From NCBI RefSeq assembly GCF_023705585.1, contig NZ_BOQE01000002.1, positions 1-64,000 on the forward strand: 64,000 bases of DNA, written 5' to 3'. The notes under the pieces were generated by a model, which was given only the letters and a program-made list of their open reading frames with translations, had not been told where the DNA came from and made no database searches. The stretch comes from Collibacillus ludicampi. Its GTDB lineage: Bacteria > Bacillota > Bacilli > Tumebacillales > BOQE01. Below are positions 1 to 15,623 of this stretch, piece by piece. Position 1 is the first letter of the stretch. Each line of letters starts with the position of its first letter. The position numbers were made by a program, and so were the translations under genes.

Positions 1-91
1 GAAACAAAAGAAACGGGATTGAGAGAATGAGAAAGAAGACTCCGAGCGGAAGCGACCAAAACCCCCGCTCGTCTCTCCATAACCGTTTCAA
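1..91 (-). CDS. TadE/TadG-like pseudopilin, cut by the window edge
   Basis: Only the first 30 or so codons are visible, running off the left edge. A TTG at 89-91 follows the stop of the upstream gene by a few bases, with a weak TAGGCG ribosome site. The residues include DERGFWSLP followed by a hydrophobic helix (about residues 15-30). This charged-residue, Gly, hydrophobic-helix pattern near the N terminus is typical of TadE/F/G minor pseudopilins of Tad (type IVc) pili. It is the last visible member of the minus-strand Tad operon. An ATG in another frame (M-E-R-R) is less likely because it gives no membrane segment. Partial gene, so the family call is tentative. Confidence 0.45.
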   Translation of the reverse strand, partial: MKRLWRDERGFWSLPLGVFFLILSIPFLLF

Positions 92-95
92 ACGC

Positions 96-497
96 CTACC
101 ACTCTCTTTCAAAATACGCGGTCGATTGCAAGTCGATTGTCGGGCCAAGCGGCTTCCCTCCAATCAGCGTAAGCATGAGCGGGGAAAATAAATAGTGACG
201 GTAATGAACCGTAACCGCCACTTCATCCCCTGCATAGAAATTGATCGTCACGTCCGTGCTGGGATCAAACAGAGTGACTCCAGCGTATTCGATGGGTTTC
301 CCGCTCCCCTGAATCACGTTAAGTGCTCTTTGTTCGACTGCCTGATAATCATTGGTAACAGCTGCCTTCCTTGCTGCTTCTCGTGCTGCTAATTGAACCA
401 CATCTCGTGCATCGGTAGCCGATGAGATCACCGGGATGGCAAGGAAGAGCACTAAAAAGAATGGAATGAGAAATCGAAAAACAATTAAATCTTGCAT
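96..497 (-). CDS. TadE-like minor pseudopilin, single N-terminal membrane helix
   Basis: A 133-residue protein. I start it at 497 and not at the longer ORF start (527) because AAGGGAT lies seven bases before this ATG, and the upstream gene stops at 508 so the two do not overlap. Residues 4-25 form one hydrophobic helix ending in an Ala/Ser-rich stretch. The rest is a soluble, beta-rich domain (VTINFYAGDEVAVTVHYRHY) resembling the extracellular part of TadE/TadG proteins, which act as minor pilins or pilus adaptors. It sits after TadC in the same operon. Exact assignment to TadE or TadG cannot be made by eye. Confidence 0.55.
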   Translation of the reverse strand: MQDLIVFRFLIPFFLVLFLAIPVISSATDARDVVQLAAREAARKAAVTNDYQAVEQRALNVIQGSGKPIEYAGVTLFDPSTDVTINFYAGDEVAVTVHYRHYLFSPLMLTLIGGKPLGPTIDLQSTAYFEREW

Positions 498-507
498 GGC
501 CGATCCC

Positions 508-747
508 TTAACTCTCCAATTGTCCAACCTTATCCACGATGCTTTGGAAAAAGCCTACGAATGCTGAACGAAACGTTGGAGATATCGTTAACAGGATTCC
601 TAAAATAATAAAGCATAAACCAACAACGAGGACTAGAGGGGACACGGCACCCTGTTCGTTTAGAACCACTGTATAGATCTTTTGTTGGACCTTTTCTATG
701 ACTTTTTGTTTCATCTCTTGACCTTTTTTCCATATTTTTTTGAACAT
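508..747 (-). CDS. Small single-helix membrane protein, TadE/F or pilin-like
   Basis: About 79 residues. The second ATG (747) is chosen because AGGAG lies nine bases upstream; the ATG at 756 is too close to it. The N-terminal third is basic and helical (KKIWKKGQEMKQKV), then comes NEQGAVSPLVLVVG leading into one long hydrophobic helix. A Gln-Gly-Ala junction before a hydrophobic segment resembles the processing region of Tad pseudopilins, but the Glu at +5 of classical Flp pilins is missing (Pro/Leu here), so it may not be the major pilin. It lies between TadC and the TadE-like gene with short spacers. Function is inferred from position. Confidence 0.5.
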   Translation of the reverse strand: MFKKIWKKGQEMKQKVIEKVQQKIYTVVLNEQGAVSPLVLVVGLCFIILGILLTISPTFRSAFVGFFQSIVDKVGQLES

Positions 748-770
748 AGTTTCCATCTCCTCTCATGTTT

Positions 771-1643
771 TTAAATAGCTTTGAATGAATTCATAAAGTT
801 AATCCCAGAGATCACAAATTCAAAGAATATCGACGGGCCAAGAATGAGAAAAATAACCGTGAATAGGATTTTTAAATTCACTTTTTGGATCAACTTTTCA
901 ATCTTGTTTTGTAGTTCTTCGTCTAATTCTTCGAGCATGGCTTGCAAAGCAAATTCAATCTTAGATCCATTTTTTAAGGTTTGATGAACGACGACATACA
1001 GTTTTTCGATTTCCTTAATTCCCGTTTCATCCGCAAGCCACTCAAAGGATTCATCTAATGTCGAGCGAAAATCATAACGTCGTTCAAACTGCTCCAGGAT
1101 TTTGCGAAACTCTCCCGTAGTAATCTTGATGGATTCGTGAATCGCTTGGTCAAATCGGATATCCGTTTTGACTAACAAACTTAGTGTCAATAACCAACTG
1201 CGAAATTGTCTTCGGATACCCGCTTGTCTTTGAGTTTTATATGTCCAAATCAATAGATAAGGGAACATGGTACCTATTCCCCCTAAAAGCAATCCAGCTA
1301 GAATGTGGCCTGCCAAAGACGTGTCCGAGAACAAGGACAAGGAAAATATCCCTACTCCCGCAATCATGCGGATTACTGTCACGTCGTGTGCATCCCATCC
1401 GAACGGACGTCCTGCTTGCCGAAGGTTTTTCTCCAGATTCTCTAACCCGAGTTGAGAGGGAAATACTTTTGCAAGCAGTTCCTCCAGTTTCTGTCCCCAT
1501 ACAGGACTCTTTGATGAATTAGCCATCTCAACCCCTTCCACCAGAGACAATAATGCTTGCTGCCTTTCTTCCCTCTTCATAGCGACCCCCAGGAAAGCGG
1601 AGAAAACAGCCACGGCAAACAGGAATCCAATCATGTATTCCAT
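771..1643 (-). CDS. tadC: TadC-like inner-membrane protein (T2SS F family)
   Basis: A 290-residue membrane protein. The ATG at 1643 follows AGGGGGTGAGGCG; the longer ORF start has no site. It has an N-terminal helix (3-20), a cytoplasmic region, a pair of helices around 95-140, a charged four-helix domain typical of the type II secretion F/GspF fold, and a C-terminal helix (KILFTVIFLILGPSIFFEFVI). TadB and TadC form the inner-membrane platform on which the TadA ATPase works in Tad pilus assembly. TadB lies two genes upstream, separated by a small unknown gene. Family assignment is fairly secure; the choice of TadC over TadB rests on gene order. Confidence 0.75.
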   Translation of the reverse strand: MEYMIGFLFAVAVFSAFLGVAMKREERQQALLSLVEGVEMANSSKSPVWGQKLEELLAKVFPSQLGLENLEKNLRQAGRPFGWDAHDVTVIRMIAGVGIFSLSLFSDTSLAGHILAGLLLGGIGTMFPYLLIWTYKTQRQAGIRRQFRSWLLTLSLLVKTDIRFDQAIHESIKITTGEFRKILEQFERRYDFRSTLDESFEWLADETGIKEIEKLYVVVHQTLKNGSKIEFALQAMLEELDEELQNKIEKLIQKVNLKILFTVIFLILGPSIFFEFVISGINFMNSFKAI

Positions 1644-1647
1644 CGCC

Positions 1648-2067
1648 TCACCCCCTTCCGTAAATCTGAACAAAGGTTTTTCGGTCGACATCGATCTGCA
1701 AAACATCCTTGGCTCGTAAAACCTTCATCAGCTTCCGTAATCGATTCGGGCGCCAGTTATAGAGATTGAAGAACCACAGCATGACAAGACCGGGCTTGTC
1801 ATACCACTTCAGCGGCACCCGTTTCACATGAACGGTTTCCAAGGAGTAGTCAATCGTGAGACTCCTCGCTCTCACTCGCGTCTCCTTTCGCCAAAAGTCC
1901 TGATCCTGTAATAAACTAACAAGTTTCTCATATGCCTCCTTTCGTTTTTGAAAGAACTTCTTTTTGTCAGCAAAATAAAACAGCCATCGTGGTTGATGGC
2001 TGATAAACATCTGCTTTTCTACTCTTGCCAGCACGTAGTAACCGTTGAGTCGTTTTCGCTTATACAC
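1648..2067 (-). CDS. Basic protein of unknown function between tadB and tadC
   Basis: A 139-residue, very basic and aromatic protein with no signal peptide or membrane helix. A GTG start at 2065-2067 overlaps the tadB stop (GTGTATAA), which suggests translational coupling. Residues 17-45 (KQMFISHQPRWLFYFADKKK) and the C terminus (RKTFVQIYGRG) are rich in Lys, Arg, Trp and Phe. I do not recognise the family. Its place inside the tadB-tadC pair is unusual because those genes are usually adjacent. A structural or regulatory role for the pilus platform is possible, but only by association. Confidence 0.65.
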   Translation of the reverse strand: MYKRKRLNGYYVLARVEKQMFISHQPRWLFYFADKKKFFQKRKEAYEKLVSLLQDQDFWRKETRVRARSLTIDYSLETVHVKRVPLKWYDKPGLVMLWFFNLYNWRPNRLRKLMKVLRAKDVLQIDVDRKTFVQIYGRG

Positions 2068-2941
2068 GTACTTTCACTACTTTCATGAGGTAGTAAACAC
2101 CAAAAATGATCACTGCACAGGTAAAGTAAAAGTAAATACGAATCCCTCCGTGTAAAACCGGCTCAATGCTCGGCCAGAAAAACCAGAAGATGGGAATGGG
2201 TAGAACGGATAGTCCGTACCCAATCCATCGAATACCTGCGGTTTTGGCTAAAATGGTTTTTTCTGTACCAAAATACCTTCGAATGATTGTGTTCATATCT
2301 TGATAAATCTGTACCAAACTCGAATTAGTTTCGATGGCAATGCGTGTATTTTCGGCAAGTGTTCTGTACTCAGGGATACCGGATTGCTCCGCACGGTTCC
2401 TCATGATCTCTAAGGAGGTTTTTCCTAGTGTCTCTGCTTGCATGATGATCTGCTCGCATTCGTTGGCGATGATCCGGTTTTTGCTGTTCATCCCCTGCCT
2501 AAACAGTAGTTCCACGTCCGATACGGATTGGAAGATAGAAGCTCCTAGCTCTGTCAAATCCAAGAGGCCATACCGAAACGCACTGTAGTAGCGTTGTTTT
2601 CTCCATTTTAGATAGAGAAAAGGAGTGAAAAAACCAATCAATGTGAGAAGAAGTCTCCCACCCCACCCCCATCCGTAAACAACCCCTACAAGGAATCCCA
2701 GAATCGGCGCTAGGGTCAGAACCATCATCATCTCGGTTCGGCTCGTTTTCATGCCAGCCTGATTGACCAGCTCCATAGCCACAGCCAGGGGAGACCGAAT
2801 CCGAACTTCCCGTGTTTGAGAAACTTCCAATGTTTCGCCCGCTATTCGCTCCTGCAAGGCTTGCTGCTTTTCTTGCTTTTGCGTTCGGCGCGCGACCAAT
2901 AACAAAAAGACGGACAGGAAGCATAGGAGAAAGAACGTCAT
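2060..2941 (-). CDS. tadB: TadB-like inner-membrane protein (T2SS F family)
   Basis: A 293-residue protein starting at the ATG that overlaps the cpaF stop (ATGA at 2938-2941), with AGGCGG seven bases upstream. It has an N-terminal helix (2-16), a polar region, two adjacent helices (APILGFLVGVVYGW...LLLTLIGFFTPFLYL), a cytoplasmic helical domain with LLDLTELGASIFQ as in F-type platform proteins, and two C-terminal helices. With TadC it should form the membrane platform turned by the CpaF ATPase. Tight overlap on both sides supports a single transcript. Confidence 0.75.
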   Translation of the reverse strand: MTFFLLCFLSVFLLLVARRTQKQEKQQALQERIAGETLEVSQTREVRIRSPLAVAMELVNQAGMKTSRTEMMMVLTLAPILGFLVGVVYGWGWGGRLLLTLIGFFTPFLYLKWRKQRYYSAFRYGLLDLTELGASIFQSVSDVELLFRQGMNSKNRIIANECEQIIMQAETLGKTSLEIMRNRAEQSGIPEYRTLAENTRIAIETNSSLVQIYQDMNTIIRRYFGTEKTILAKTAGIRWIGYGLSVLPIPIFWFFWPSIEPVLHGGIRIYFYFTCAVIIFGVYYLMKVVKVRV

Positions 2942-4305
2942 GCCACATCCGCCTCTCGAAGTTCTTTCGGGATCACGATCCCCCATTTCGCGCACTCTTG
3001 TAGGAAGTTCTTTGTCAGCCCATGAAAGCGCAGGCGGCCATCCGGAAGCCCTTTCTCATCAACTCCTGTCCATTCGAATGTAAACACGGGTATGAGTCGT
3101 ACCTCACCTTGATCTTTCTCGGGGTCAACTTCCGCGATCTCAGTAATCCTTCGTTTTCCTTTGAATCGTTGAATTTGAATCACCATATCGATGGTATTCC
3201 GAATGTTGGACCATATCGCATTTGATCCTAAGCGTTCTGGGGAACCACTTGCCAGATCATGAAGACGTTTTACGGCACCTAATGCTGATTTCGCGTGAAG
3301 CGTGGTTCCCACACGCCCCGATCCGGTATTCGCCGCTTGCAAGAATTGATACGACATGACTGCATCACGAACTTCTCCCACGTACAGGTCATCAATGAAC
3401 ATCCGAAGTACGTCCTTCAGGTTGATGTCTGTCCCGATTCGTCCCTTTCCTTCGGTATTCTCTTGCCGTTCCCAATACCGCATGACAAAGGGGTGAATCG
3501 GCTGAAGTTCCGGGGCTTCTTCCAGAATTCCAATCTGCTTGTCTTCCGGTGTTTTTGAGATAAGAGCGTTCATTAGAGTTGTTTTTCCCGAACCTGTACC
3601 ACCCGACAAAACAAAACCGTATCGAATTAAAGAAGCTAGATAGAGATAAAGATACGCTCGTTCATCAAAGAGTTTCTTTTCTTGCCAGAGCTGCTCCAAC
3701 GTAAAGAAGCCTAAGAATTTCCGGATGGTCACGATCGTACAAGGCTTGACCAATACCTTTCCCGTCTTTTCGTCCAAACGCTGGACACCGACCACCTCGC
3801 CTTTGACGTGTAAACGGGAACCATCAGCTAGGAATGCGTCCGTCCGAGCGTTGGAGCGGTCAAACCGGAACGGTGTCCCTTTGAGTTTCCGTTGCACCCA
3901 TTGGTTTACGTCATCATCCGATTCAAAAGTGTAATCAAAGATCTTTCTTTCCCCGTCTTTTACATACCGGATATACTGGTTCCCGGCGATTTGGATGTCC
4001 GATACCTCGGGGTCATCCATTAACTTTTGAATAATGCCGTAGCCGTAGATATGATCCAGCACTCTTTGTACCACTTGAGAATGTTGGGACGGTGGGATCT
4101 CATTGATGTTCCGCAGTAAGTCATACAACCGCAAGGACATTTCCGTTCGCGCAAGTTTTTGGGCAAATAATTCAACGTTACGCTCTAATTCGAGTAAGAG
4201 ACGGTTCGTATAGTTATTGATGTTGTCCGATTGGGCGTTTCGGGTTGATGTTTTAATGACATTATCCTGCTCCCGTTTGGCTAACTCCTGAAGCAGTTTG
4301 TTCAT
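2938..4305 (-). CDS. cpaF: CpaF/TadA-type secretion ATPase (VirB11 superfamily)
   Basis: A 455-residue hexameric secretion ATPase. Walker A is GGTGSGKTT at residues 235-243, followed by the Glu-rich Walker-B-like stretch GILEEAPELQP. Before it lies the N-terminal domain with RTDAFLADGSRLHV, typical of TadA/CpaF. The ATG overlaps the cpaB stop (ATGA at 4302-4305). CpaF drives both assembly and retraction of Tad pili. It is also the only VirB11-like ATPase seen in an operon that contains VirB4 and VirB6-like genes, so it might serve either machine. Length and motif order fit the family well. Confidence 0.9.
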   Translation of the reverse strand: MNKLLQELAKREQDNVIKTSTRNAQSDNINNYTNRLLLELERNVELFAQKLARTEMSLRLYDLLRNINEIPPSQHSQVVQRVLDHIYGYGIIQKLMDDPEVSDIQIAGNQYIRYVKDGERKIFDYTFESDDDVNQWVQRKLKGTPFRFDRSNARTDAFLADGSRLHVKGEVVGVQRLDEKTGKVLVKPCTIVTIRKFLGFFTLEQLWQEKKLFDERAYLYLYLASLIRYGFVLSGGTGSGKTTLMNALISKTPEDKQIGILEEAPELQPIHPFVMRYWERQENTEGKGRIGTDINLKDVLRMFIDDLYVGEVRDAVMSYQFLQAANTGSGRVGTTLHAKSALGAVKRLHDLASGSPERLGSNAIWSNIRNTIDMVIQIQRFKGKRRITEIAEVDPEKDQGEVRLIPVFTFEWTGVDEKGLPDGRLRFHGLTKNFLQECAKWGIVIPKELREADVA

Positions 4306-4928
4306 TTACTCCCATCTCCTTTCGAAAGCAGTTCCACACGAACCACGCCGTTCACAATGGCTTTTTGAAGGGAATTGGATTGTTCTTCGGGTACCAAAAT
4401 CCAGAGATTCGGCCCTTGGTTACTGTTCTTATCACCTTCTTCCACTTTTACAACCGGACGGTCTTTCACTTCCGTGATCTCCACATCCTGCTGTTTCTTG
4501 ATGAGCCCCACCAGGTTCACGTGATCCCCTGGCTGAATGCCGTTCCCCAGATCGTTTTTCTGAAGGGGTACGGCGATCATGACCAGACTCGGATCTTGAC
4601 GGGATGCCAGGAGTCCGGCCGGGCGATCCACGCCGGTAACGATTTCTCCCTGTCTCATTTGCGTACCGGATTGCAGAGCCATCGATGTGTATTTCCCTAC
4701 CACATCCTCCAATTTCGTAAAGGTATCCGATTGAACATCTTTCTTAGATATGGAAACCAGTTCTACATCATTTGCTGTGATCTTGGTGTATGCGGGAATA
4801 TTGGTCTTGGTCATGACGACTTTCGTCTCTTGCTTAGCTGACGAGACAAAAGAAACACTCATAAAGGCCGCCGCTAACCCTGTACCGACCGCTGCGAGAT
4901 AAAAGATCGTGGACTTTTTGATCTTCAC
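4302..4928 (-). CDS. cpaB: CpaB/RcpC-like pilus assembly protein with SAF domain
   Basis: A 208-residue protein with an N-terminal membrane anchor (residues 6-29), then a SAF domain beginning KTNIPAYTKITANDVELVSI, and a downstream region with VMIAVPLQKNDLGNGIQPGDHVNLVG, the pattern of CpaB/RcpC proteins. These stabilise the Tad secretion channel and may bind cell-wall polymers. There is no outer membrane in this kind of host, so a wall-side role is expected. It overlaps cpaF by four bases and follows the cpaE-like gene by 12 bases, which fits one transcript. Confidence 0.8.
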   Translation of the reverse strand: MKIKKSTIFYLAAVGTGLAAAFMSVSFVSSAKQETKVVMTKTNIPAYTKITANDVELVSISKKDVQSDTFTKLEDVVGKYTSMALQSGTQMRQGEIVTGVDRPAGLLASRQDPSLVMIAVPLQKNDLGNGIQPGDHVNLVGLIKKQQDVEITEVKDRPVVKVEEGDKNSNQGPNLWILVPEEQSNSLQKAIVNGVVRVELLSKGDGSK

Positions 4929-4940
4929 TCAATTTCCCCC

Positions 4941-6563
4941 CTACGCTCGTTTGAACAGACGTTGGAAAAATCCCGTTTCCTTGCGGAAGAGGGAGAAATC
5001 CAGTTCAGTTTCCATGACGTTTCCCAACATCGCTTGCAGTTTCTTTGTAAACGACGATTTCTGGTTTAATGCAATGGGTTGCCCGCTTTTCAACCGTTTC
5101 TTAATCTCCGGTGTATACGGGAGTTTCGCGGATACCGGGTAACTCGTCTTTGCCACGAGGATATCCTCTTCTTCTTTTTTGAAGTCCTTGCCCACTTGGT
5201 TCATAACCAATTTGATTTTCCCAGGATGAATGCCGATTCCATCTTGATCTCTCAACTGATGAATGAGTTCGATGGTAGACGGAAACGTGGTGATGTCATC
5301 CGTTGTGACCACGACCACTTTGCTCGCATGCTGATAGGCTTCGACAGTTCCCGTTGAGAGGAACGGTTGGCAATCAATCAGGATGAGTTGGAAGTATCGT
5401 TTGAGAATCGATAGAATCTTTCGCATGGTTTCTCCAGAAATCCCGTGAATGCTCCGACCTGCCGGAACGATGTAGACCCCTTCTTTCGTTTGATTGAGCA
5501 AATTGAAAACGGTGGACTCCGCTACCTCCTCTTCATCGAGATCTTGCCAGTGATCGGCACTGTACTTGACCCGCGTGTTACTTACGGGCGAAAGATTCCC
5601 ACGATGATCCGCATCGATCACGACGGTACGCAGCCCCAATTGTTGTTTCGCTAGGACAGCCAGATTGTATGTGATCGTAGTCTTTCCTACGCCCCCGCGC
5701 GCGCTGGTAATCGCCAGAATCTGTTGCATAGACGGCGCAAAATAGCTTTGTGTCATCCGGTTTTCGAACGCCGGATACGGAGTGTCCTCGTCCAAATAAG
5801 AAGGCACCGACGCTTTCTTTTTAAACGGCAAAAGCGATCGCTTTTTCTGCCGGTCCTCCTCAGCGCTTTCCTGACGCACAATCGGTTGCATCCTGGGGGC
5901 CGAATAGTCAGTTTTCCCCTCCGCATCCCACGGCATTTTGGTTTGCGGCCTGGATTGCGGTTGTGTGATTCTTGGATGGGAAGCTGATACTTGTGTTTCT
6001 ACGACCTGTTGTAAAGGCTTTGTTTCTATCTGCGGCACCGGTTTTGTTTCCTTTTGTGGCTCCTGCTTTTGTATTGCCGATAAACTTCTGCGGATCTTCA
6101 CTTTGCGTTCCGGTTGGGGTTCCGCAATTTCTTCCCTTTGGGGTTCTTCCAAGATCGGCTCCGTTAGTTGGGGTTCCTGTACCTGCGCTACGGCAGCCGG
6201 AGCGACTTCCTGTCTGAATGCGATGATCTCTGAAAGTCCGTATGCTTGAATGGCTCTTTCAAACGCATCCAAGGTCAGCGGAAATTTGAAACACTCCTTG
6301 ACTCCTACCGCCATGAAATTTCGCACCAATTCGACTTTCTTTTTCATCATGACGATAAAAAAGAAAGTCGCGGGAAATCGACGAATTTTTTCCGCGACAA
6401 AATCGAGGTTGATTTCTTCTGGAAGGATCACGATTTGGTGATTCGGTATTTGTTCGAGCAGTTCTTGCTCGGTTTGAATGGCCGTAACCTCATATCGTTC
6501 CCCTAGCGCTTGATAGGTGGTCTGCAAGCGTGTGGTGTTAATGTCAAAGAGCAAAACCTTCAC
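4941..6563 (-). CDS. cpaE: CpaE-like pilus localisation ATPase (receiver-like + MinD/ParA domain)
   Basis: A 540-residue protein in three parts. Residues 1-115 form a receiver-like fold without an obvious phospho-acceptor constellation. A proline/glutamate/glutamine-rich linker covers roughly 118-250. A MinD/ParA ATPase follows, with the deviant Walker A ARGGVGKTT at 288-296 and a following VVIDADHRGN. CpaE proteins place the Tad machinery at the correct cell site. A second CpaE-like gene precedes it directly (13-bp gap) but has lost its P-loop, so this copy is probably the active partner. A plasmid-partition ParA is less likely because of the receiver-like domain and the Tad context. Confidence 0.82.
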   Translation of the reverse strand: MKVLLFDINTTRLQTTYQALGERYEVTAIQTEQELLEQIPNHQIVILPEEINLDFVAEKIRRFPATFFFIVMMKKKVELVRNFMAVGVKECFKFPLTLDAFERAIQAYGLSEIIAFRQEVAPAAVAQVQEPQLTEPILEEPQREEIAEPQPERKVKIRRSLSAIQKQEPQKETKPVPQIETKPLQQVVETQVSASHPRITQPQSRPQTKMPWDAEGKTDYSAPRMQPIVRQESAEEDRQKKRSLLPFKKKASVPSYLDEDTPYPAFENRMTQSYFAPSMQQILAITSARGGVGKTTITYNLAVLAKQQLGLRTVVIDADHRGNLSPVSNTRVKYSADHWQDLDEEEVAESTVFNLLNQTKEGVYIVPAGRSIHGISGETMRKILSILKRYFQLILIDCQPFLSTGTVEAYQHASKVVVVTTDDITTFPSTIELIHQLRDQDGIGIHPGKIKLVMNQVGKDFKKEEEDILVAKTSYPVSAKLPYTPEIKKRLKSGQPIALNQKSSFTKKLQAMLGNVMETELDFSLFRKETGFFQRLFKRA

Positions 6564-6576
6564 GTTTCATCCCCCT

Positions 6577-7827
6577 TTATACCCGCTGTAGGTCTTTCAA
6601 CATGAAATAGGATTTTGTGGAAGGCAAAAGTGCCGCCAACGGAATCGCATAGGCAATAGAGCGATACACATCCGGAAGAAACGGCACATGATGAGAGGCC
6701 GGGATAGGGGCCAATTCCGATTCATCACACGGCAGATAATCAGGCATCCACTTATTCATGAATAGACGCATCGGAATTTGTCTCGTAGAGAGAAACGCCC
6801 ACATCACGCGCGACTGAAGCATCCTCGCGTGATCCATATCGGCTACGATCAAGACCTCATCGCACCGTTCCAACATATTGGATAAAAGGTCTTTTCTCCA
6901 ATTCGATGCAGTGGAAAAATCCAAGACAACCGCCTCGTAGGGCAGTTGTTCTACCGTATCCATCCATCCCACGTCCCCATACAGTCGAATTCGATCTTCT
7001 TCCGAATAAGGAGAGGTAAATGCTTCGAGACCTTGTACCGTTGTCTCGGAACCATTGATTTCTCCGTGCTCCATCAGGTCAAAAAACGATTGATTGCTCA
7101 CTTCTCTTCCAAACCAAAGATGCAGGGCTCGGTTTTCACTCAGATCAATCAGTGCGGTATGATAATCCTCTAATGCAAGCGTTGCCGCTACATTTTGTGC
7201 AATGAACGTTGAACCGCAAGAGGTTGGCGATAAAACCGCCACGATATACGGCTTATGTGTGCGCGGCAATGAAGGTGTCCATATGGACGGTCCGTCTGGT
7301 TCATCGATTTCATCCTCTTCTGCCGCGGACTGGATAGGAGCAGGACTTTCAACCTCTTGGCTTTCTTGTGCCCGTTCCATGATCGTTTCGATCTTCGTGA
7401 CAGGCACCTGTTTACGAGAATGAATACCGAGTTCCTCCAAAATTCGCTTCCGGTTCCGTGGATGTTCAATGCGATCCACGATTTCCCTAACCATATCCTC
7501 TAAAAGATCTTTTTCTTTCGGCGGGTTAAAGACAATATCAAAAATTTGACTGCTGATCGCTTCTTGAATGAGTGGATCGTTTTTGTCCAGATTACCCGCC
7601 AGAAGGATAATCTGGGGCGGTTCATCCAGGGTTGTGAGGTCAAAAATGACCTGCTCCGGTCCCAATTTGCCGGGCAAAAAAGGAGACAAAACCACAACTT
7701 GCGGCTTTGTCTCCAATACTACAGGCAGAATCCCGTCCGAATAAGGCACGACTTTGATCACGTTGCATACTTCTTGCAGCGCCTTATTCAGGGATTTTTC
7801 CTTATTGGCAACCAAAACAGTCTTCAA
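6577..7827 (-). CDS. CpaE-like protein with a degenerate P-loop
   Basis: A 416-residue protein with the same plan as the next gene: a receiver-like N-terminal domain (VVVLSPFLPGKLGPEQVI around 43-60), an acidic linker, and a MinD/ParA-like domain from about residue 192. Where the P-loop should be it reads SPTSCGSTF (200-208): the catalytic Lys and the GKT core are absent, although the surrounding fold (FIAQNVAATLALEDYHTALIDLS) is preserved. It is therefore probably a non-hydrolysing partner, perhaps of the intact CpaE encoded downstream. It is intact over its full length, with no stop or frameshift, so it is not a decaying gene. Confidence 0.75.
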   Translation of the reverse strand: MKTVLVANKEKSLNKALQEVCNVIKVVPYSDGILPVVLETKPQVVVLSPFLPGKLGPEQVIFDLTTLDEPPQIILLAGNLDKNDPLIQEAISSQIFDIVFNPPKEKDLLEDMVREIVDRIEHPRNRKRILEELGIHSRKQVPVTKIETIMERAQESQEVESPAPIQSAAEEDEIDEPDGPSIWTPSLPRTHKPYIVAVLSPTSCGSTFIAQNVAATLALEDYHTALIDLSENRALHLWFGREVSNQSFFDLMEHGEINGSETTVQGLEAFTSPYSEEDRIRLYGDVGWMDTVEQLPYEAVVLDFSTASNWRKDLLSNMLERCDEVLIVADMDHARMLQSRVMWAFLSTRQIPMRLFMNKWMPDYLPCDESELAPIPASHHVPFLPDVYRSIAYAIPLAALLPSTKSYFMLKDLQRV

Positions 7828-7846
7828 AGCATTCCCCCCTCATGAT

Positions 7847-8176
7847 TTAGTGTGGCATTACGTGCCCTCGTATCCATTCCACGATAATGGGTACCATGAC
7901 CGAAAATCCCGTCATGAGAAACGCACCGGCAATGTTTCCCCATCCCCATCGTTTGATTTTCGAATCGTTGGCAACGAGGCCAAACAATACGAGGATAATA
8001 CCGAAAAAACACACAAAAACCGCGAGAACCACGATGATGGAGATCACTAATTCGTAACCGCTGATTCCCCCGTGAATCCAGTGATTCACGACGGTCGAAA
8101 TCGAAGGGATGTTTCCGTGGTTTGCGGCTTTCAACACATCTTCCGGATTCACCGCAGGTAGATTTGTTGGATTCAT
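7847..8176 (-). CDS. Small two-helix membrane protein of the secretion operon
   Basis: A 109-residue protein with a polar N-terminal 40 residues and two hydrophobic helices (ELVISIIVVLAVFVCFFGIILVLFGLV and a second near 80-100), separated by a short basic loop (NDSKIKRWGWGN). The two-helix plan resembles VirB2/TrbC-type pilins or small channel subunits, but there is no cleavable signal peptide as in the gene at 14869. It lies between the CpaE-like genes and the wall hydrolase, at the join of the T4SS and Tad halves of the operon. I cannot assign it to a family. Confidence 0.6.
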   Translation of the reverse strand: MNPTNLPAVNPEDVLKAANHGNIPSISTVVNHWIHGGISGYELVISIIVVLAVFVCFFGIILVLFGLVANDSKIKRWGWGNIAGAFLMTGFSVMVPIIVEWIRGHVMPH

Positions 8177-8186
8177 GTCACCCTCC

Positions 8187-9782
8187 TCATTTTCCTAACA
8201 ATACAGGCAACGGATCTCGTCGGTCATTGATGTTTCCGTTCGCCCAAAATTCCAAATGGAGATGCGGCCCTGTCGCATGTCCGGTTTGTCCGACAAGCCC
8301 GATGATCATCCCCTGCCCGACGATTTCGCCTACATGGACTTTGTGAGCACTTAGATGAGCAAAGTACCAGTCGTTCCCGTCCACCCCGTGCAGTACAATG
8401 GAGTTGCCTCCGTTTACGTCTTGCGCGGCCGTCCAGATCGTTTTAATCACACCCGAGACCGGAGCCAGTATAGGTGTTCCTTCCGGTGCCCCAATATCCA
8501 ATCCCCGATGCCCGTTTTCTCCAAAATACTGCGTGATGTCATGCACCGATGTCCCTTGTACAGGCCAGAGATAACCGCTGGAACTTGCAGGAGCAGAAAG
8601 CAACTTTTTGAAGGTATCTGCCATCCCCAATACATTGTTCACGTAAGTTTCTGATCCACCGGAATACTGATACAGTACCTTATGAAGATCTCCGTGATAT
8701 TCATCAATGAGATACCTTAAATAATGGGCTCCAGTAAAAGCGTTGTCGGCAGCATCAAAGATGTTTATTTGTCCATCTCCATCACCATCGACTTTGAATT
8801 TCGCCCATGTGTTTGGGTGAATTTGCATCAGCCCCAAGCAACGGATGATCTGGCCATTTTCTTGGAATGGAGGACCGACGGCTTCCGGGTTAAAGGTACT
8901 TTCTTGCTTGGCGATCGCCATAAGCAGTTCAAAAGGAACGTTGTATTTTTTCGCCGCCGATTGGAAGATCGGGATCAAGTAAGTCGGGACTTCTCCAATG
9001 TACCCGGTAAGATAAGGGGTAAATAGACGTTTTTCCAATAGCCAGTCCAGATTTTCTTGTTTTTCGTCTAATCCTTTGGCAAATTGCAGCACCCAGGAGC
9101 GGTCATCTTCCGTGACTTCTTTTCGGTTTGTATACTCCTTAATCGCTTTATCCAACCGTGTAAAGTCTTGCTTGTAATTCATTCCGGTCAACTTCGGTTG
9201 ATCAATGGTCACGGTACATTCTCCAGACTTAAAGGTCACCTTTTCTCGTTCATCGTACCGAAACGTCGTAATTCCATCATAGGTATCTACTTTCATGAGC
9301 TTCTTAATCGGAATGACTTCCGTGCTCGTTCCATCGGGACATGAAATCGTAACGGTTTTTGTGTCATCCTCATAACTAAAGTGTGGTGCTAGATCCTCCG
9401 CAATGTTTTTTGCGTGGCTTTTACGGATTTTCAATTCAAGATTTCGGTTTACCCCCGTTGTATCTATTCCATAAACAAGCCCCCATTGAAGGAGATAGGA
9501 ACGTTCCAACTCATTAAAGCTAATAATGGGGGGGTTTACCTTGTCCGTTTCCTCTTTATACGGTTTGGCGTAATTTTCATCCTGGGCGTTGTAGGAGCTG
9601 TCCGCATCATAATCTCCCGTGGAGATTCCCCCGAAGAAGGTTCCAAAGATGATGGAGACCATGATAAATAGAAGTAATATCGGACCAAAGGTAGCCAGTA
9701 TCCATACGAGTATCTTACGGATCAGGCGTTGACCCGCTTTCTTGAGTGCTGATGCCTGATTGTACAACCATCTACCATCCAT
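8187..9782 (-). CDS. Bifunctional wall hydrolase: lytic transglycosylase plus M23 endopeptidase (VirB1/CwlT-like)
   Basis: A 531-residue membrane-anchored enzyme. An N-terminal helix (24-48) anchors it, followed by a linker region of unknown fold. A lytic transglycosylase domain spans about 262-395, with the catalytic Glu in AKQESTFNP (Glu294) and LGLMQIHPNTW. An M23 zinc endopeptidase domain follows (about 405-525), with zinc ligands in HRGLDIG (425-431) and HLHLEF (507-512). It would open both glycan strands and peptide bridges for the secretion channel, as CwlT and VirB1 do in conjugation systems. Inside the transglycosylase domain a DGDGDGQIN stretch looks like a calcium-binding loop. Confidence 0.88.
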   Translation of the reverse strand: MDGRWLYNQASALKKAGQRLIRKILVWILATFGPILLLFIMVSIIFGTFFGGISTGDYDADSSYNAQDENYAKPYKEETDKVNPPIISFNELERSYLLQWGLVYGIDTTGVNRNLELKIRKSHAKNIAEDLAPHFSYEDDTKTVTISCPDGTSTEVIPIKKLMKVDTYDGITTFRYDEREKVTFKSGECTVTIDQPKLTGMNYKQDFTRLDKAIKEYTNRKEVTEDDRSWVLQFAKGLDEKQENLDWLLEKRLFTPYLTGYIGEVPTYLIPIFQSAAKKYNVPFELLMAIAKQESTFNPEAVGPPFQENGQIIRCLGLMQIHPNTWAKFKVDGDGDGQINIFDAADNAFTGAHYLRYLIDEYHGDLHKVLYQYSGGSETYVNNVLGMADTFKKLLSAPASSSGYLWPVQGTSVHDITQYFGENGHRGLDIGAPEGTPILAPVSGVIKTIWTAAQDVNGGNSIVLHGVDGNDWYFAHLSAHKVHVGEIVGQGMIIGLVGQTGHATGPHLHLEFWANGNINDRRDPLPVLLGK

Positions 9783-9788
9783 CGTTTA

Positions 9789-11891
9789 TCATCTCATTTT
9801 CACGATACTCAACCGTTCCAGGCTTCTTCGCATCGTACGTTCCGCCATGTAGTTACCCAGTTTCGCGGAAACATTCGGGCTGAATGCGGAACCGGCCATC
9901 GTACCGATAAATTGATTTCTTGCGGCACGAGAACGAGCCATGTCCAATTGAACCGAACCGGAATGCGGTTGTTGGAAGCCCATCGCTTGGTGAAATGCCT
10001 GGCGATTCGTGAGTCGCATTCCTTGCTCTTGAGCCATTCGTTTTTGCTCACGAATACTTTGACGAATCCCGACTCCCGCTCCACCTATACCGCCAACGGT
10101 TGCTCCCACACGCTGACCCATGGCTGAACCGGCATTGGCAAGTGCCCCGCGAAAGTTCGTCGGACGTCCGGTGACTGCCGTTGCTGCCACATCCATCGCC
10201 AGTCCTGTCGCTCCGCCAAGCACTTTCCCGGTTGCGCCCAAAACTTTTGAGCCGATCCTGTGGCCTTGTGCGATCCGTTGATTCATCCGGTGAATACCAG
10301 GCGGTGTGTTTCTTGCCCCTTCTTGCCCGGTTGCTTGTCCGATAACGGTACCTTTCTCTTGTCCGTTCATGGCGCTAGGAGACGAATAATACGGGGTATT
10401 TCCTGCACCAGGACTACCATCCATCGAAGCACTTCCCACGACTCCTCCGCTCATGCCGGAAGAAGTGGGGTTGGTAGCGCTAAGCGTGGATAAAGCGGTT
10501 GGCGAAGGTTGCCCGAGTCCCGTATTTTGCGTGGCGGATGTCCCCATCGACGGCGCTCCTACGTTTGTCAAAACAGAAGAAGAACCTACTCCTCCACTTG
10601 TCTGCTTGGAAGTGGTTTGCGTTTTTGACCCCTGAGATTTCATAGCGAGACTCGTTCCTGCAAAGCTCCCCAAGGTCGATCCTACGAGATTCGCCATCCC
10701 TCTGATGCCTGTGATCCCCATCATGTCGGTTTTCGCGGCATACGATTCGTTTTGTCCCATCAGTCCGTAGATCAGCGCGGTGAAGAACTGCCGGAAATAC
10801 GCGGATACGGGGATCAGGAAAAACATGACGACCGGGGCGACCCACCACTTGTTCATGAGGCCGGCATTGTGTTTATTCGACCAATCCAATAGCCGAAAGT
10901 ACATGCTAAAGACCAAGGCATGCGAAAAAGGCAGAAAAGCATTCGTGATCGTTTCACTCAGCCAGATGCCAAACGGTCTTTTATTCCCGGACGCCCATCC
11001 GAGTCCCACAAAGGGACCAATCATGACAGAGCCGATCAACATAAATTTCCGACACACATAGAGGATGTTGATAAAGATCGACATCCCGATCAGCACCAAT
11101 CGAACAAACGCACTGGTCGCGTAATTTCCCGTATAGACTTCAAGGGATGACAGTTCCGACTTCGACGAGAAATTGGGTGCCACAAAACGCATCAGAATCG
11201 AGTTCCAATCCGCCAAGTAATAGACGATGAACCATGAAAAACAGATGAGGAGAACGCCGACTCCAAGGTCGATCATATAATCCCCGATCCTTGCCCGAAC
11301 ACGAGGATTATTCTTTCCCCTAGCGATGTGAAGCCCGTTTTTGATCACCACGCCGATCAACAACACCCAGGAGAGGGCAAAAAAGCCGTAATAAATCGGG
11401 CTGATCGCATCGAATTCGTTGGCATTTCCTTGCTGAGCGAAAACAGCAATGGATGCCGGATCAAGGCCAAAAACGAGCTTATCAATCGTGGTAAATCCTG
11501 CTTTCGCCAGAGTTGTCCCCATCTCGTCAAAAAAATCACCGATCATGCGACCGGTGAAGCTCGAATCCTCACGCTCTTTGTTTTTTCGGTCGTCCGAACC
11601 CGTGTCTGATGATGAAGAAGTTGAAGAAGAATCGCTTGAATTTGAATTGCTCACAGCCGAGTTGTCTTGTTGCTCTTGCTGTTGCTTCACCATCTGACCG
11701 ATTTCTGAGTTATCGACCGCATTTTTCAAAGCACTTCCCGCATCTTGCTGGGTGTAGGAATCATTTAATCCGCTGTTCGCCTTCGCGGAAAGAGCGGCCA
11801 CACCATAATACAAAGACGTGGAGATCACAATGGATAGCGTCCATGCTCCAATCCGACGAAGCGTTTTAAACGGTCGTTTCTGCAAATTCAT
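9789..11891 (-). CDS. VirB6/TrbL-like polytopic membrane protein
   Basis: A 700-residue protein with an N-terminal helix, a Ser/Asp/Gln-rich spacer, and about six hydrophobic helices between residues 165 and 385 (for example YGFFALSWVLLIGVVI, VGVLLICFSWFIVYYLADW, VLIGMSIFINILYVC). A long Gly/Ser/Thr/Ala-rich C-terminal half ends in basic helices. This is the plan of VirB6/TrbL channel proteins of conjugative type IV secretion. It starts inside the end of virB4 (26-bp overlap), so translation is probably coupled. The low-complexity tail is longer than in minimal VirB6 proteins. Confidence 0.75.
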   Translation of the reverse strand: MNLQKRPFKTLRRIGAWTLSIVISTSLYYGVAALSAKANSGLNDSYTQQDAGSALKNAVDNSEIGQMVKQQQEQQDNSAVSNSNSSDSSSTSSSSDTGSDDRKNKEREDSSFTGRMIGDFFDEMGTTLAKAGFTTIDKLVFGLDPASIAVFAQQGNANEFDAISPIYYGFFALSWVLLIGVVIKNGLHIARGKNNPRVRARIGDYMIDLGVGVLLICFSWFIVYYLADWNSILMRFVAPNFSSKSELSSLEVYTGNYATSAFVRLVLIGMSIFINILYVCRKFMLIGSVMIGPFVGLGWASGNKRPFGIWLSETITNAFLPFSHALVFSMYFRLLDWSNKHNAGLMNKWWVAPVVMFFLIPVSAYFRQFFTALIYGLMGQNESYAAKTDMMGITGIRGMANLVGSTLGSFAGTSLAMKSQGSKTQTTSKQTSGGVGSSSVLTNVGAPSMGTSATQNTGLGQPSPTALSTLSATNPTSSGMSGGVVGSASMDGSPGAGNTPYYSSPSAMNGQEKGTVIGQATGQEGARNTPPGIHRMNQRIAQGHRIGSKVLGATGKVLGGATGLAMDVAATAVTGRPTNFRGALANAGSAMGQRVGATVGGIGGAGVGIRQSIREQKRMAQEQGMRLTNRQAFHQAMGFQQPHSGSVQLDMARSRAARNQFIGTMAGSAFSPNVSAKLGNYMAERTMRRSLERLSIVKMR

Positions 11892-13827
11892 TCACCTCGT
11901 CGGCGGTAGCGGTTTGAGTTTTCGGCGCTACCCCCCATTCTCCGGCCGTGGTAAACACAAATTCTTCTTCATAGGGGGTCGGTTCTACGTGAATAGCAGT
12001 GGCTTGCTCGCCCATTCGCATCAATGCGTCCCCGACATTGAGGCGACGAATAAATTCCACCTGTCCGTCTGGCAGTTCCCACAGTTCTTGAATGGCCCGC
12101 AAATCGCTCCTTTGCTGTTGGAACAACAATGTTACCCCAGCCTGTGCTAAGACGACTTTTCCTTCGTCGCTTCGCGTAAATTCCCGAATGTTTTGGGTCG
12201 CCAGAGTCAACGTAGTGTTTCGCTTGGCGGCCCGCCGTGCCAGTTGTTCAAAGAAATTCAGGGACTGCGGAATTTTCGTAAACAGCCAGGCTTCATCAAA
12301 GACCACCCGTTTTTTGAGGTGCAAACGGCGTTTGACGAAGTTCTCCCAGGTGTAGTTTTGCAAAATGTGCATCGCCAACGGTCGGAGTTTTTGCAACGTA
12401 TCGAGTGCCTTGAGGTTGAAACTGACCGCTGGAAATTGATCCAAGGAGACATCCGTTTGTCCATCGAAGATCCCCATGGCCGATCCACGAAGGTAAGGAA
12501 TCAAGCGGGTGACCATCCGGTTTGCACCTTTCCCATACGATTGTAATCGCTGGTGAATGGATGAGATGGTCGGCATTTCTTTTTTCCGCAGCCCTACCGC
12601 GCCCACACGCGGGTCTTCTTCCCAAAGCGAATCGGGGTCATCCGTAATTTCCTTCTCTTCGTACTCCTCTTGAATGGCTTGATGCAATAGCGATTCTTCT
12701 TCCGGTGTCAGTGGAAAACGACCGTCCTGTTCCATCATATATAAGAGAACGCTTTTGACTTCTTCGATTTTGGACAGTAGATGATTGATTTGTTCGACCT
12801 CATCCGTTTCCACATCGCAGAAATTGAACCCGCAGAATTTTCCCGGCATGAGCTTGATCTCTTTGCCGCCGATCCGATCCATCACATCCCCGTATTCTCC
12901 ATCCGGATCAAACACCCAGGTGATGATTCCCCGGCAGGCGTCGCGGGAAATCAAGAGTTTGACAAACGTGGATTTTCCGGAACGGGTGCGCCCGAATACG
13001 TTCATGTGAATCGCTGGAAGCTCATTTCCTCCAATAAAGTTATTGAAGAAAACAGGTGCGCCCGTATGCCAGTTACGCCCAAGGAATGTTCCGTTGGGAT
13101 GGGTGAGTTCCGGACTATCGAATGGGAACAACGCGGTTCCCGCCGCCAGATTAAAGTTGGAATGATTCTCGACAATCGGATTGACTCCTGACGGGGAAGC
13201 GGCGATCAGTCCGAGGTCTTCTTCTAAGAAGGTCTCCCCGATCCTCATCATCTTTCGTCCGGCTAAGCGTTCCAATTCCTCAGATTTTCGATCCAATTCC
13301 TCCAAGGTTAGAGCGGAAACGGAAATAAAGGTGGAGACATAAAACATGCGGTCACGGTTCAGAGAGATGTTGTCCCGTAAATCCCGCGTATCCATCAGTG
13401 ACTTTTCGATCAGCGCATCTTTGGAGGTTTGCCTTCCGTCCGCCGCGTACAACGTGGTTTCCAGCTTGATGAGCAAGTCCGTGAGCTCTTGCACATCCTC
13501 ATCCGGATCGCCGGGAAACACATGGATGGAAACATCTACATCTCCAATCGAATACAGGTCGTTAAGGTATCCCATGTACACTTGCGACGGATGTTGCAGG
13601 ATTTGATAGATCCGTGTGTATCGACGCCCGTTGGTTTGGATATACCCGCGTTTCTTCTCCAAGAGTTCTCTCCAATCGGGAAAGAACAATCCGTCCGGAC
13701 TGATGACATCCACCGTATCCGAGATGCCTGACAAGAGGGACGGCCGATTGGTAACAGCAGGCTCATTTCCACGATCCGTTTTATTTCTCTTTCTCTTGAA
13801 AAGAGCATTTAAGTTAAGCCGTTTCAA
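11866..13827 (-). CDS. virB4: VirB4-family conjugation ATPase
   Basis: About 653 residues. A TTG at 13827 with GGGGGTG nine bases upstream is the likely start; a GTG at 13839 is the alternative. Walker A is GRTRSGKSTF (about residue 280), Walker B is KRVVFDEAWLF, and the arginine-containing ATLATQNIREF motif follows, all as in VirB4/TraC ATPases such as ConE of ICEBs1. VirB4 energises substrate transfer and pilus biogenesis. It is shorter at the N terminus than many VirB4 proteins; the missing portion appears to be the separate gene just upstream (13814-14545), which it overlaps. Confidence 0.9.
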   Translation of the reverse strand: MKRLNLNALFKRKRNKTDRGNEPAVTNRPSLLSGISDTVDVISPDGLFFPDWRELLEKKRGYIQTNGRRYTRIYQILQHPSQVYMGYLNDLYSIGDVDVSIHVFPGDPDEDVQELTDLLIKLETTLYAADGRQTSKDALIEKSLMDTRDLRDNISLNRDRMFYVSTFISVSALTLEELDRKSEELERLAGRKMMRIGETFLEEDLGLIAASPSGVNPIVENHSNFNLAAGTALFPFDSPELTHPNGTFLGRNWHTGAPVFFNNFIGGNELPAIHMNVFGRTRSGKSTFVKLLISRDACRGIITWVFDPDGEYGDVMDRIGGKEIKLMPGKFCGFNFCDVETDEVEQINHLLSKIEEVKSVLLYMMEQDGRFPLTPEEESLLHQAIQEEYEEKEITDDPDSLWEEDPRVGAVGLRKKEMPTISSIHQRLQSYGKGANRMVTRLIPYLRGSAMGIFDGQTDVSLDQFPAVSFNLKALDTLQKLRPLAMHILQNYTWENFVKRRLHLKKRVVFDEAWLFTKIPQSLNFFEQLARRAAKRNTTLTLATQNIREFTRSDEGKVVLAQAGVTLLFQQQRSDLRAIQELWELPDGQVEFIRRLNVGDALMRMGEQATAIHVEPTPYEEEFVFTTAGEWGVAPKTQTATADEVNEFAETTV

Positions 13828-14545
13828 TGAGCAAATCACCCCCTACATGCGAGGTCGTATGTCCGGCTTCAACGATATTGCGAAACGGTTGTGTCAGTAC
13901 GCGATCTTTATTTAAGAACGTGTACCATACCTGTGCAATTTCTTCCGTGTTCAAGCAACGGGCTTGAATCCCGCAGGCTTCAAGTTCTGAAAGAATGAGA
14001 CGGGCTCGTCCATCCAAAACCTTGATAACTTCATCCATATTTGCGTCTGGGTCATCCAGTGTAATCACAATCAATTTGCGACGCACCCAGATCGGCTGGA
14101 CTTCCGTGAGGTTTGCCAGATATTCTTTCAGGTACTCCGCATACTCACGAAGATTGTCTGGGGCATGGTCATACTGATCCGACAAGGACGCCATGACTTC
14201 TTCCATGTCTAGCGGACGGTTTTGGTTATAAATCTGAATCGGGAAATTGATTCGCGCTAGGAGAGAAGCAAAACGGCTCTCCAAAGCCATTTGCTCCTCT
14301 TCCGACATGAGCGGGATGTTCAAGGAATTTCCTTCGATAAATACCCGATACCTCCCGCCTTGAAGGATCATGATCCCCCGGTCAATTCCCTTGATGCCGA
14401 AGTAGGATTGTACCGTAGGCAGTTCATCGGATGGCTCAACCGCACCTTTCGTCGGATTTTGCTTTTTTAACCAACGGAAGAAATAAAAAATAGCTCCGAA
14501 CGCAATACCAGCGATCAGGAGCATGATGAGAACAAACGCAATCAA
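13814..14545 (-). CDS. Membrane-anchored VirB4 N-terminal-like accessory protein
   Basis: A 243-residue protein starting at TTG 14543-14545, with GGGGGTG five bases upstream, overlapping the PrgI stop. One N-terminal helix (2-24) is followed by a soluble alpha/beta domain with VQSYFGIKGIDRGIMILQ and repeated acidic helices. That pattern is like the N-terminal, non-ATPase domain of VirB4/TraC proteins. It overlaps the VirB4 gene, so the pair looks like a VirB4 split into a tethered N-domain and a soluble motor. It could instead be a distant TcpC/VirB8-like factor; no such signature is clear. Confidence 0.6.
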   Translation of the reverse strand: MIAFVLIMLLIAGIAFGAIFYFFRWLKKQNPTKGAVEPSDELPTVQSYFGIKGIDRGIMILQGGRYRVFIEGNSLNIPLMSEEEQMALESRFASLLARINFPIQIYNQNRPLDMEEVMASLSDQYDHAPDNLREYAEYLKEYLANLTEVQPIWVRRKLIVITLDDPDANMDEVIKVLDGRARLILSELEACGIQARCLNTEEIAQVWYTFLNKDRVLTQPFRNIVEAGHTTSHVGGDLLIETA

Positions 14546-14862
14546 TCACTCACCCCCTTCATGGTCGGGCTACCCTTCCGAAAGATCCATTCACTTCTCC
14601 GCTTTTTACAACGGCGAAGTTTGATCCAGTAGATGTAATAATCCCAACCGAATTTCTTAAAGAAGGTGAACTTGAGCGTTTGATAGAGAAGTATGGAAAT
14701 TACGGTGATGATAATCGTCCAGTGTATCCACTTTATTAAAAAGAGCAGGAAACAAGATACCAGGATTCCACTCGCCAAAAAACCAATTTGGCGTAAAGTC
14801 AGCCGCCCGCCGATAATCTTCTCATCTTCATTTAACTGTACCGGTACCGAATGGACTCTCAT
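14542..14862 (-). CDS. PrgI-family (VirB3-like) membrane protein
   Basis: A 106-residue protein. It has the PrgI hallmarks VPVQLNEDEKIIGGRLTLRQ at residues 6-25, then two adjacent membrane helices (IGFLASGILVSCFLLFLI and WTIIITVISILLYQTL), and a basic C terminus. PrgI proteins are the Gram-positive counterparts of VirB3, forming the inner-membrane partner of VirB4. It sits immediately before the VirB4 genes and shares a four-base overlap with the next one. Assignment is strong because the N-terminal motif is distinctive. Confidence 0.88.
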   Translation of the reverse strand: MRVHSVPVQLNEDEKIIGGRLTLRQIGFLASGILVSCFLLFLIKWIHWTIIITVISILLYQTLKFTFFKKFGWDYYIYWIKLRRCKKRRSEWIFRKGSPTMKGVSD

Positions 14863-14868
14863 AGGACA

Positions 14869-15294
14869 TCAAGATCCAGTCGAGAAGACATATACCATAC
14901 CGGTAATTAAGGCGGCAGCAAAACAAACTCCTGCTCCTAGCGCCCACCACATGAGATCGTGGATCGCATCCGAACGATTTCTTGCATTCGAGCTTGAAAG
15001 TTTCATTCCTTTAATGACTCCAAGGATGATCACCACCACCGTAGCAAATCCAAAAATGATCGATAATAGGAGCATGGTTTTGTCTTTTAAATAATCACCG
15101 GCTTTCTTATCTTGCTGAAAACCTGCACTCCCGCTATTAAAGTCTGGAGAAGGCATTCCGGGAATATTCGCTGTTCCGCCTTCCGCCAGCTCCATAACCT
15201 GTGTGGCTGCTTGTACAGGAACCGGTTTAACAGCCACAGGGACAAAAGCGATGCTAGACACAGCCAATGCTGCTAACGCCTGTTTCCATTTCAT
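14869..15294 (-). CDS. VirB2/TrbC-like pilin with signal peptide
   Basis: A 141-residue protein with a cleavable signal peptide (basic start, hydrophobic 7-22, Ala-rich site near VQAA|TQ), a polar region, then two hydrophobic helices (about 73-93 and 114-135) joined by a short basic loop (SSSNARNRSDA). This is the layout of VirB2/TrbC pilin-like subunits of conjugation channels. GGGAGG lies ten bases upstream of the ATG. The gene starts inside the 3' end of the RHH gene (41-bp overlap), suggesting coupled translation. It is the second gene of the operon. Confidence 0.72.
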   Translation of the reverse strand: MKWKQALAALAVSSIAFVPVAVKPVPVQAATQVMELAEGGTANIPGMPSPDFNSGSAGFQQDKKAGDYLKDKTMLLLSIIFGFATVVVIILGVIKGMKLSSSNARNRSDAIHDLMWWALGAGVCFAAALITGMVYVFSTGS

Positions 15295-15457
15295 CGTTTA
15301 TTTGCCTCCCTTCTTTTGCTAGCTGCTCGTAAATGAGTACGCGCAAGTATTTCGAACGATTCATCCCTTTTTCTTTGGCAACAAAGTCTAAGATTTCTCG
15401 TAGATCCCTCGATACTACGAGACCGATACGAACTTTTTCTGGAATCGTAAATAACAC
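15254..15457 (-). CDS. Ribbon-helix-helix DNA-binding protein, first gene of the secretion operon
   Basis: A 67-residue protein with a GTG start at 15455-15457 and AAAGGAGGGATT upstream. Residues 6-50 (KVRIGLVVSRDLREILDFVA, then MNRSKYLRVLIYEQL) give one beta strand and two helices, the ribbon-helix-helix fold of Arc/MetJ/CopG proteins and small relaxosome or operon regulators. Being first in the operon it may autoregulate the T4SS-Tad transcript, or act at oriT as an accessory relaxosome protein; the sequence does not decide. The upstream GGGAA repeats are a candidate target. Confidence 0.75.
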   Translation of the reverse strand: MLFTIPEKVRIGLVVSRDLREILDFVAKEKGMNRSKYLRVLIYEQLAKEGRQINDEMETGVSSIGCV

Positions 15458-15546: not shown

Positions 15547-15623
15547 ATATCCTTATGTAACTCGCCTACTATTGCCACAATATCATATTAATAGATTTTC
15601 ATCACCAAGTCAATCCCGATTTT

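Follow-up and report, generated by a model that had tools for sequence, protein, structure and literature searches.

The first 64,000 bases of the 87,991-bp contig NZ_BOQE01000002.1 of Collibacillus ludicampi (contig C2; the window is this whole 64,000-base stretch, so window position 1 is the contig start) contain genes predicted to encode a conjugative type IV secretion system (T4SS), which run directly into genes for a Tad pilus. Both parts are on the minus strand and together cover about 18.6 kb. On balance, and by analogy, we consider it probable that the co-encoded Tad pilus is a mating-contact device for the T4SS and that the CpaF ATPase drives the pilus, not DNA translocation.

Gene content and order

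The host genome is in seven contigs, with a chromosome of 3.99 Mb. The frame of a TadG-like gene stays open across the join between the end and the start of C2, so C2 is a circular plasmid. The predicted operon continues beyond the window, past this join, to a prepilin peptidase gene. Its T4SS part has the order virB2-prgI-virB4N-virB4C-virB6-virB1-TM109, from 15294 downwards, and the Tad part downstream has the order cpaE1-cpaE2-cpaB-cpaF-tadB-x-tadC-flp?-tadE-tadG-...-tadV. Inter-gene distances are -59 to +19 bp; no mapped gap exceeds 19 bp, which is also the distance at the T4SS/Tad junction (TM109-cpaE1).

An earlier note, made from the letters of the window, had named most of these genes and described an unbroken run. 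All those it named are present where it placed them, on the minus strand, as judged by profile matches; the assignments of VirB2, VirB6 and TadB are weaker, or were made by profile iteration and position. The run stands as a gene order and is unproven as a transcript, given a strong hairpin within cpaE1 (7714-7682). The channel genes, with the regulator and coupling protein genes of the same replicon, are:

15797-16357, minus strand: sigma-70 region-4 protein, encoded upstream of the T4SS operon and putatively its regulator (Sigma70_r4 1.3e-5)
15254-15457, minus strand: 67-aa open reading frame overlapping the virB2 start, without a family match; possibly a small DNA-binding regulator
14869-15294, minus strand: VirB2-like pilin/T4SS_pilin protein (T4SS_pilin 2e-5, under the Pfam cut-off)
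14542-14862, minus strand: PrgI, VirB3-like (PrgI 5.7e-8, above the cut-off)
13814-14545, minus strand: VirB4 N-terminal half (N-terminal part of the CD1110/VirB4_plasma/TrsD models)
11866-13839, minus strand: VirB4 C-terminal ATPase half (DUF87/AAA_10; NCBIfam CD1110 VirB4 1e-56)
9789-11891, minus strand: VirB6-like polytopic protein (position and profile iteration across relatives)
8187-9782, minus strand: VirB1-like hydrolase with a membrane anchor, SLT (4e-19) and M23 (3e-21) domains
7847-8176, minus strand: TM109, a small 109-aa membrane protein that related T4SS also have at their 3' end
37774-40078, minus strand: VirD4/TraG-like ATPase (a weakly scoring copy) and adjoining Replic_Relax protein
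C2 about 68.6-71.8 kb (L005 4637-7818): second VirD4/TraG-like and Replic_Relax pair

The VirB4 ATPase, PrgI, VirB6-like protein and cell-wall hydrolase follow one another as they would in a monoderm conjugative T4SS, and two TraG/VirD4-like proteins place VirD4-type coupling proteins on the same replicon. A split VirB4 is usual in this family: nearly all relatives whose locus is intact have it. We found no match to a VirB8-like subunit; the N-terminal part of the VirB1 model shows a beta-rich region in which no VirB8 was seen, and the predicted structure of this hydrolase has a LytM-type fold. Profile matches to TM109 occur at the same place in loci L013, L078, L090, L095 and others. The sigma-70 region-4 gene has the same position in pGspE55-1 (Geobacillus subterraneus) and in Paenibacillus thiaminolyticus and Aneurinibacillus plasmids, and a sigma-70-like gene is conserved upstream of related T4SS at L013, L099, L144, L162, L163 and L230.

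The Tad part comprises the following genes:

6577-7827, minus strand: CpaE1, with a receiver-like and a MinD/ParA-like domain and a degenerate Walker A motif, PTSCGST (Foldseek, motif comparison)
4941-6563, minus strand: CpaE2, a Tad CpaE/TadZ with the canonical RGGVGKT (CbiA/ParA-type; CbiA 2e-15)
4302-4928, minus strand: CpaB (SAF domain, 7e-8)
2938-4305, minus strand: CpaF/TadA ATPase (T2SSE 3e-23; TadA family 7.5e-44)
2060-2995, minus strand: TadB platform protein (profile iteration, position)
1648-2067, minus strand: 139-aa protein between tadB and tadC, without a family match
771-1706, minus strand: TadC platform protein (T2SSF 1.4e-9)
508-756, minus strand: Flp-like pilin candidate of 82 aa, G/AVSPL (position; the layout resembles pilins of pVpro and Geobacillus)
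96-527, minus strand: TadE-like minor pilin, G/SAMQD (position, N-terminal motif)
1-95, minus strand: 5' part of the TadG-like gene, which continues into C2:87991 downwards
C2:84686-85114, minus strand: prepilin peptidase TadV/CpaA (Peptidase_A24 1.9e-10)

Between the TadG-like gene and the prepilin peptidase gene are a lipoprotein-like gene and a gene for a 594-aa surface protein. By sequence, the set is near complete for a monoderm, with CpaF/TadA, TadB, TadC, CpaE/TadZ, CpaB/RcpC and the prepilin peptidase. The solved structures nearest to CpaF in the PDB are themselves CpaF (2e-37), and the TadA model scores better than the VirB11 model (7.5e-44 vs 2e-30). The host chromosome holds another Tad locus (L007, C1:3250000-3268000); the 18 kb read there contain no T4SS. 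The EAL, copper-amine-oxidase-like and repeat surface proteins encoded at this chromosomal locus have paralogues on the plasmid (L005 12002-17046).

Recurrence of the linkage

Our search for the C-terminal half of VirB4 covered 399 genomes from the class and 398 from the phylum, and we then ran a CpaF profile on the 60 VirB4-positive genomes; a profile was used because linked copies that had diverged escaped a search with one CpaF protein. With the window genome excluded, there were 62 VirB4 loci in 59 Bacillota genomes. CpaF lies within 25 kb of VirB4 at 19 of the 62 loci (18 of the 59 genomes), where 1.9 are expected from CpaF number and genome size (Poisson P about 3e-13; shared ancestry deflates this value, and fragmented assemblies lead to an undercount). 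Within 15 kb, 13 of the 62 loci are linked vs 1.2 expected. The linkage is not chance. Small replicons fail to explain it, because 7 of the 19 linked loci are on contigs longer than 3 Mb.

All ten further linked loci that were mapped have VirB4 and CpaF on one strand; three pairs among them, L083/L151, L085/L160 and L095/L157, each represent a single element or two almost identical ones. Plasmids with Tad beside the T4SS include pAACI02, pGspE55-1, pVpro and those of P. thiaminolyticus and Aneurinibacillus, with differing block order. In a scan of named genomes covering 80 loci, virB1 is often followed by Tad-type genes in the closest relatives, among them Caldanaerobacter, Heliorestis, Desulforamulus and Pelotomaculum. 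Where gut Clostridia carry this VirB4 family, there is mostly no Tad nearby, and the T4SS relatives in Jeotgalibacillus and Sporosarcina have no Tad within 16 kb. Since T4SS relatives exist without Tad in their mapped flanks, the Tad pilus is an accessory. Matches to CpaE2 upstream of the channel in gut Clostridia are probably ParA and were rejected as Tad CpaE. No second VirB4 was found in the same-order genomes.

Separate histories of CpaF and VirB4

The earlier note had suggested phylogenies as a check on whether CpaF and VirB4 co-evolve. In our trees CpaF does not track VirB4. The linked CpaFs are clustered (7 changes vs 13.4 for shuffled labels, after false or doubtful rows were removed: ClpX matches, one long outlier and two others), and they are rejected as one clade (approximately unbiased test, p = 5e-6). 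The plasmid CpaF groups with Alicyclobacillus-type Tad ATPases, which are mostly not beside a T4SS, and, of the loci mapped by then, the second Tad locus of pAACI02 gives the TadB and TadC of the window their highest scores. The window VirB4 groups with those of G080, Caldanaerobacter, G643, G509, G462 and G747, most of which carry CpaE/CpaB or CpaF at the same junction.

The tree neighbours of VirB4 and CpaF thus differ, and by sequence so do their histories: the channel lineage appears to keep a Tad partner that is exchanged or re-recruited. Because the linked CpaFs are not one clade and that of the plasmid is of the Alicyclobacillus type, Tad blocks have joined this channel several times, with the exact number of joinings soft owing to long branches in these quick trees.

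The junction

CpaE1 stands directly after the channel genes in many relatives, including some without CpaF in the mapped stretch. In its structural model (mean predicted local distance difference test score 63, weak in the middle), Foldseek matches the N-terminal part to a receiver and the part after it to Soj/FlhG/MinD-like folds. A motif comparison across loci shows that the first post-channel CpaE-like gene in many of them has SPxxxGKT or a decayed motif, not the canonical KGGxGKT, and that the second CpaE keeps RGGVGKT or KGGxGKT.

Two terminator-like hairpins bear on how the operon may be expressed:

7682-7714, minus strand: hairpin within cpaE1, 113 nt into the gene (15-bp stem, -22.8 kcal/mol, T6 tail)
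15517-15546, minus strand: hairpin ahead of the operon (13 pairs, T-rich tail)

None of 300 synonymous shuffles (0/300) reached the strength of the hairpin within cpaE1, and hairpins also occur near the junction in the relatives L084, L085, L087 and L095. Such junction hairpins may be attenuators that keep Tad expression below that of the channel. The earlier note had looked to a terminator and promoter between the two halves as evidence against a joint operon; the terminator-like hairpin in cpaE1 answers to half of this, and no separate Tad promoter stands out beside the junction. The hairpin ahead of the operon has a promoter-like site (15613-15585) just upstream and is a possible attenuator; it is one of two terminator-like hairpins in the minus-strand stretch 15517-15735.

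Comparison with known systems

The nearest likenesses in gene content are pGspE55-1 and the P. thiaminolyticus and Aneurinibacillus plasmids, where Tad is beside sigma-VirB2-PrgI-VirB4N-VirB4C-VirB6-M23 on the same strand. There, however, Tad is upstream of an intact T4SS and CpaF is from another clade; pGspE55-1 and P. thiaminolyticus also have an opposite-strand gene and the sigma gene between Tad and T4SS. One Aneurinibacillus plasmid locus (L230, G191:C2:352000-371900) has a truncated second T4SS copy that leads straight into the Tad set, then a full sigma-T4SS unit, an apparent duplication of the module. Vallitalea pronyensis pVpro and a Heliorestis acidaminivorans locus share the order found here, T4SS and then directly Tad genes on the same strand, but have diverged Tad proteins (pVpro CpaF is about 19% identical) and another CpaE/CpaB order.

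Among published plasmids, pL15/pY0017 of Sulfobacillus thermotolerans carry MinD-like, CpaF and TadB/TadC genes with VirB4, TraG and a lytic transglycosylase, a set described as one conjugation backbone (PMC6803676, citing Deane and Rawlings 2011); unlike C2 they have, by that account, a MOBP relaxase and less tightly joined genes, and their VirB4 is distant (26%). The Gram-positive plasmid pAW63, experimentally conjugative, has a 444-aa VirB11/T2SSE-type ATPase (CDS22) in its tra region, and no Tad was recognised in those passages of its published description that were read (PMC1196294). Linear plasmids of Cutibacterium acnes combine a tad locus with VirB4-type conjugation genes and a sigma-70 gene upstream of tad (PMC5696575, PMC3666418). 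The Tad pilus protein of the C. acnes plasmid was found to be surface-exposed (PMC5696575); these plasmids differ in being linear and actinobacterial, and the authors leave a functional link between tad and conjugation open (PMC5696575). IncI R64 and TP114 have a conjugative T4SS and an accessory type IV pilus that stabilises mating pairs (PMC7508951, PMC12102498), although they are Gram-negative plasmids with other classes of type IV pilus and T4SS. Loss of the pilin in IncI2 TP114 left solid mating unchanged and abolished transfer under unstable conditions; the pilus was needed in liquid and in the gut (PMC7508951).

The kind of gene set is thus already known in scattered form, from pAW63, pL15/pY0017 and the C. 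acnes linear plasmids. The earlier note's statement that a hybrid would be new is partly right: plasmids with tad and VirB4 loci had been described in Cutibacterium and Sulfobacillus, and, compared with the open PMC text, what is new is the single-operon form, the recurrence as counted here, the recruitment of Tad blocks on several occasions and the distinct CpaE at the junction.

Other genes of the plasmid

C2 also encodes ParB, a TubZ-type (tubulin-like) partition GTPase (L005 116-1615), and, within a DNA-metabolism gene block, a DNA polymerase III beta clamp (window 55409-56557) and a single-stranded DNA-binding protein (58699-59166). On another contig, C3 (L008, 2019-3840), one 246-aa protein is encoded twice in opposite orientations, probably an assembly palindrome.

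Proposed function and alternatives

Mating contact, one of two functions put forward in the earlier note, appears the most economical by analogy with the IncI plasmids (PMC7508951, PMC12102498). We infer that the channel and the pilus would be made at the same time, with Tad as the downstream part of one operon. The pilus would be extended, and possibly retracted, by CpaF with TadB and TadC, perhaps aided by the large surface protein of the same operon, and would draw in recipients and keep them in place for the VirB4/VirB6/VirB1 channel to act on. The Tad block was recruited from an Alicyclobacillus-type Tad, as similar blocks were to related channels several times.

Several observations weigh against this function. 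The Flp candidate lacks the Glu at +5 expected in G/xxxxE, and the plasmid offers none that fits better. No classical MOB relaxase is among those proteins of the plasmid that were scanned, so self-transfer of the plasmid is unproven; the missing relaxase may be one of the two Replic_Relax proteins. The hairpin in cpaE1 may partially uncouple T4SS and Tad expression. Tad is the commonest plasmid-borne class of type IV filament and is often carried for surface colonisation (PMC6668835). This last point favours a different role, in which the pilus serves adhesion and biofilm growth of the host and not conjugation, and sits beside the T4SS because the two share a promoter and the surface-structure block of a mobile plasmid. 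Such adhesion cargo must be taken seriously as a rival, since the host chromosome carries a Tad locus of its own, whose EAL, copper-amine-oxidase-like and surface protein genes have paralogues elsewhere on the plasmid. Random cargo, however, would not repeatedly join the same T4SS family on the same strand near the end of the channel genes, and the linkage holds in elements on chromosome-sized contigs too; we regard cargo as somewhat unlikely. If the transcript of the T4SS ended at the hairpin in cpaE1, the Tad genes would be under their own control; its long stem, its T6 tail, the shuffling result and the hairpins of relatives speak for this, but the hairpin is in a coding frame, where translation would disrupt pairing, and the sole promoter-like site downstream on the minus strand is not close (5299-5272). 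Separate transcription units therefore seem very unlikely to us.

Closer ties between the two machines can also be pictured. CpaE1 might anchor the Tad base at the T4SS, with pilus retraction delivering the recipient to the channel and this coupling evolved repeatedly, which we think unlikely. The other function in the earlier note, a CpaF motor serving both machines, was not supported: CpaF is an ATPase of the Tad type and has a TadB/TadC pair to itself, its phylogeny does not follow that of VirB4, and there are related channels that have no CpaF in their mapped flanks. Nor do we retain CpaF as a VirB11 of the T4SS, docked on VirB4 to power the channel or its pilin in a true hybrid machine. 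It is a VirB11 relative, as its match to the VirB11 model shows, and a comparable ATPase of the functional pAW63 was named VirB11 (PMC1196294); but it is closer to TadA/CpaF, groups with free-standing Tad ATPases and has a history unlike that of the adjoining VirB4, which leaves replacement of VirB11 highly improbable. Capture of DNA by the pilus beside a T4SS-like translocator has a precedent in Micrococcus luteus, where Tad is needed for transformation, as cited in PMC5696575. Export is the direction suggested by the VirD4-like coupling proteins and the Replic_Relax genes, however, and no ComEC or ComEA is among the plasmid proteins scanned; an uptake system is extremely unlikely.

We return to the Tad pilus as a mating-contact device. 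Little is understood of the way in which Gram-positive donors that have no F-like pilus find recipients and hold them. A Tad pilus encoded together with the channel, as in many plasmids and integrated elements of Bacillota, offers an answer that can be tested. If true, it would be an independently evolved counterpart of the accessory type IV pilus found in IncI plasmids. The finding also qualifies the general claim that ATPases of the VirB11 superfamily are absent from Gram-positive conjugation loci. The earlier note had said that these systems lack VirB11, which agrees with the textbook statement (PMC12857230) and has exceptions in pAW63 CDS22 (PMC1196294) and the Sulfobacillus backbone (PMC6803676); the likely reason for such an ATPase here is that it belongs to the pilus.

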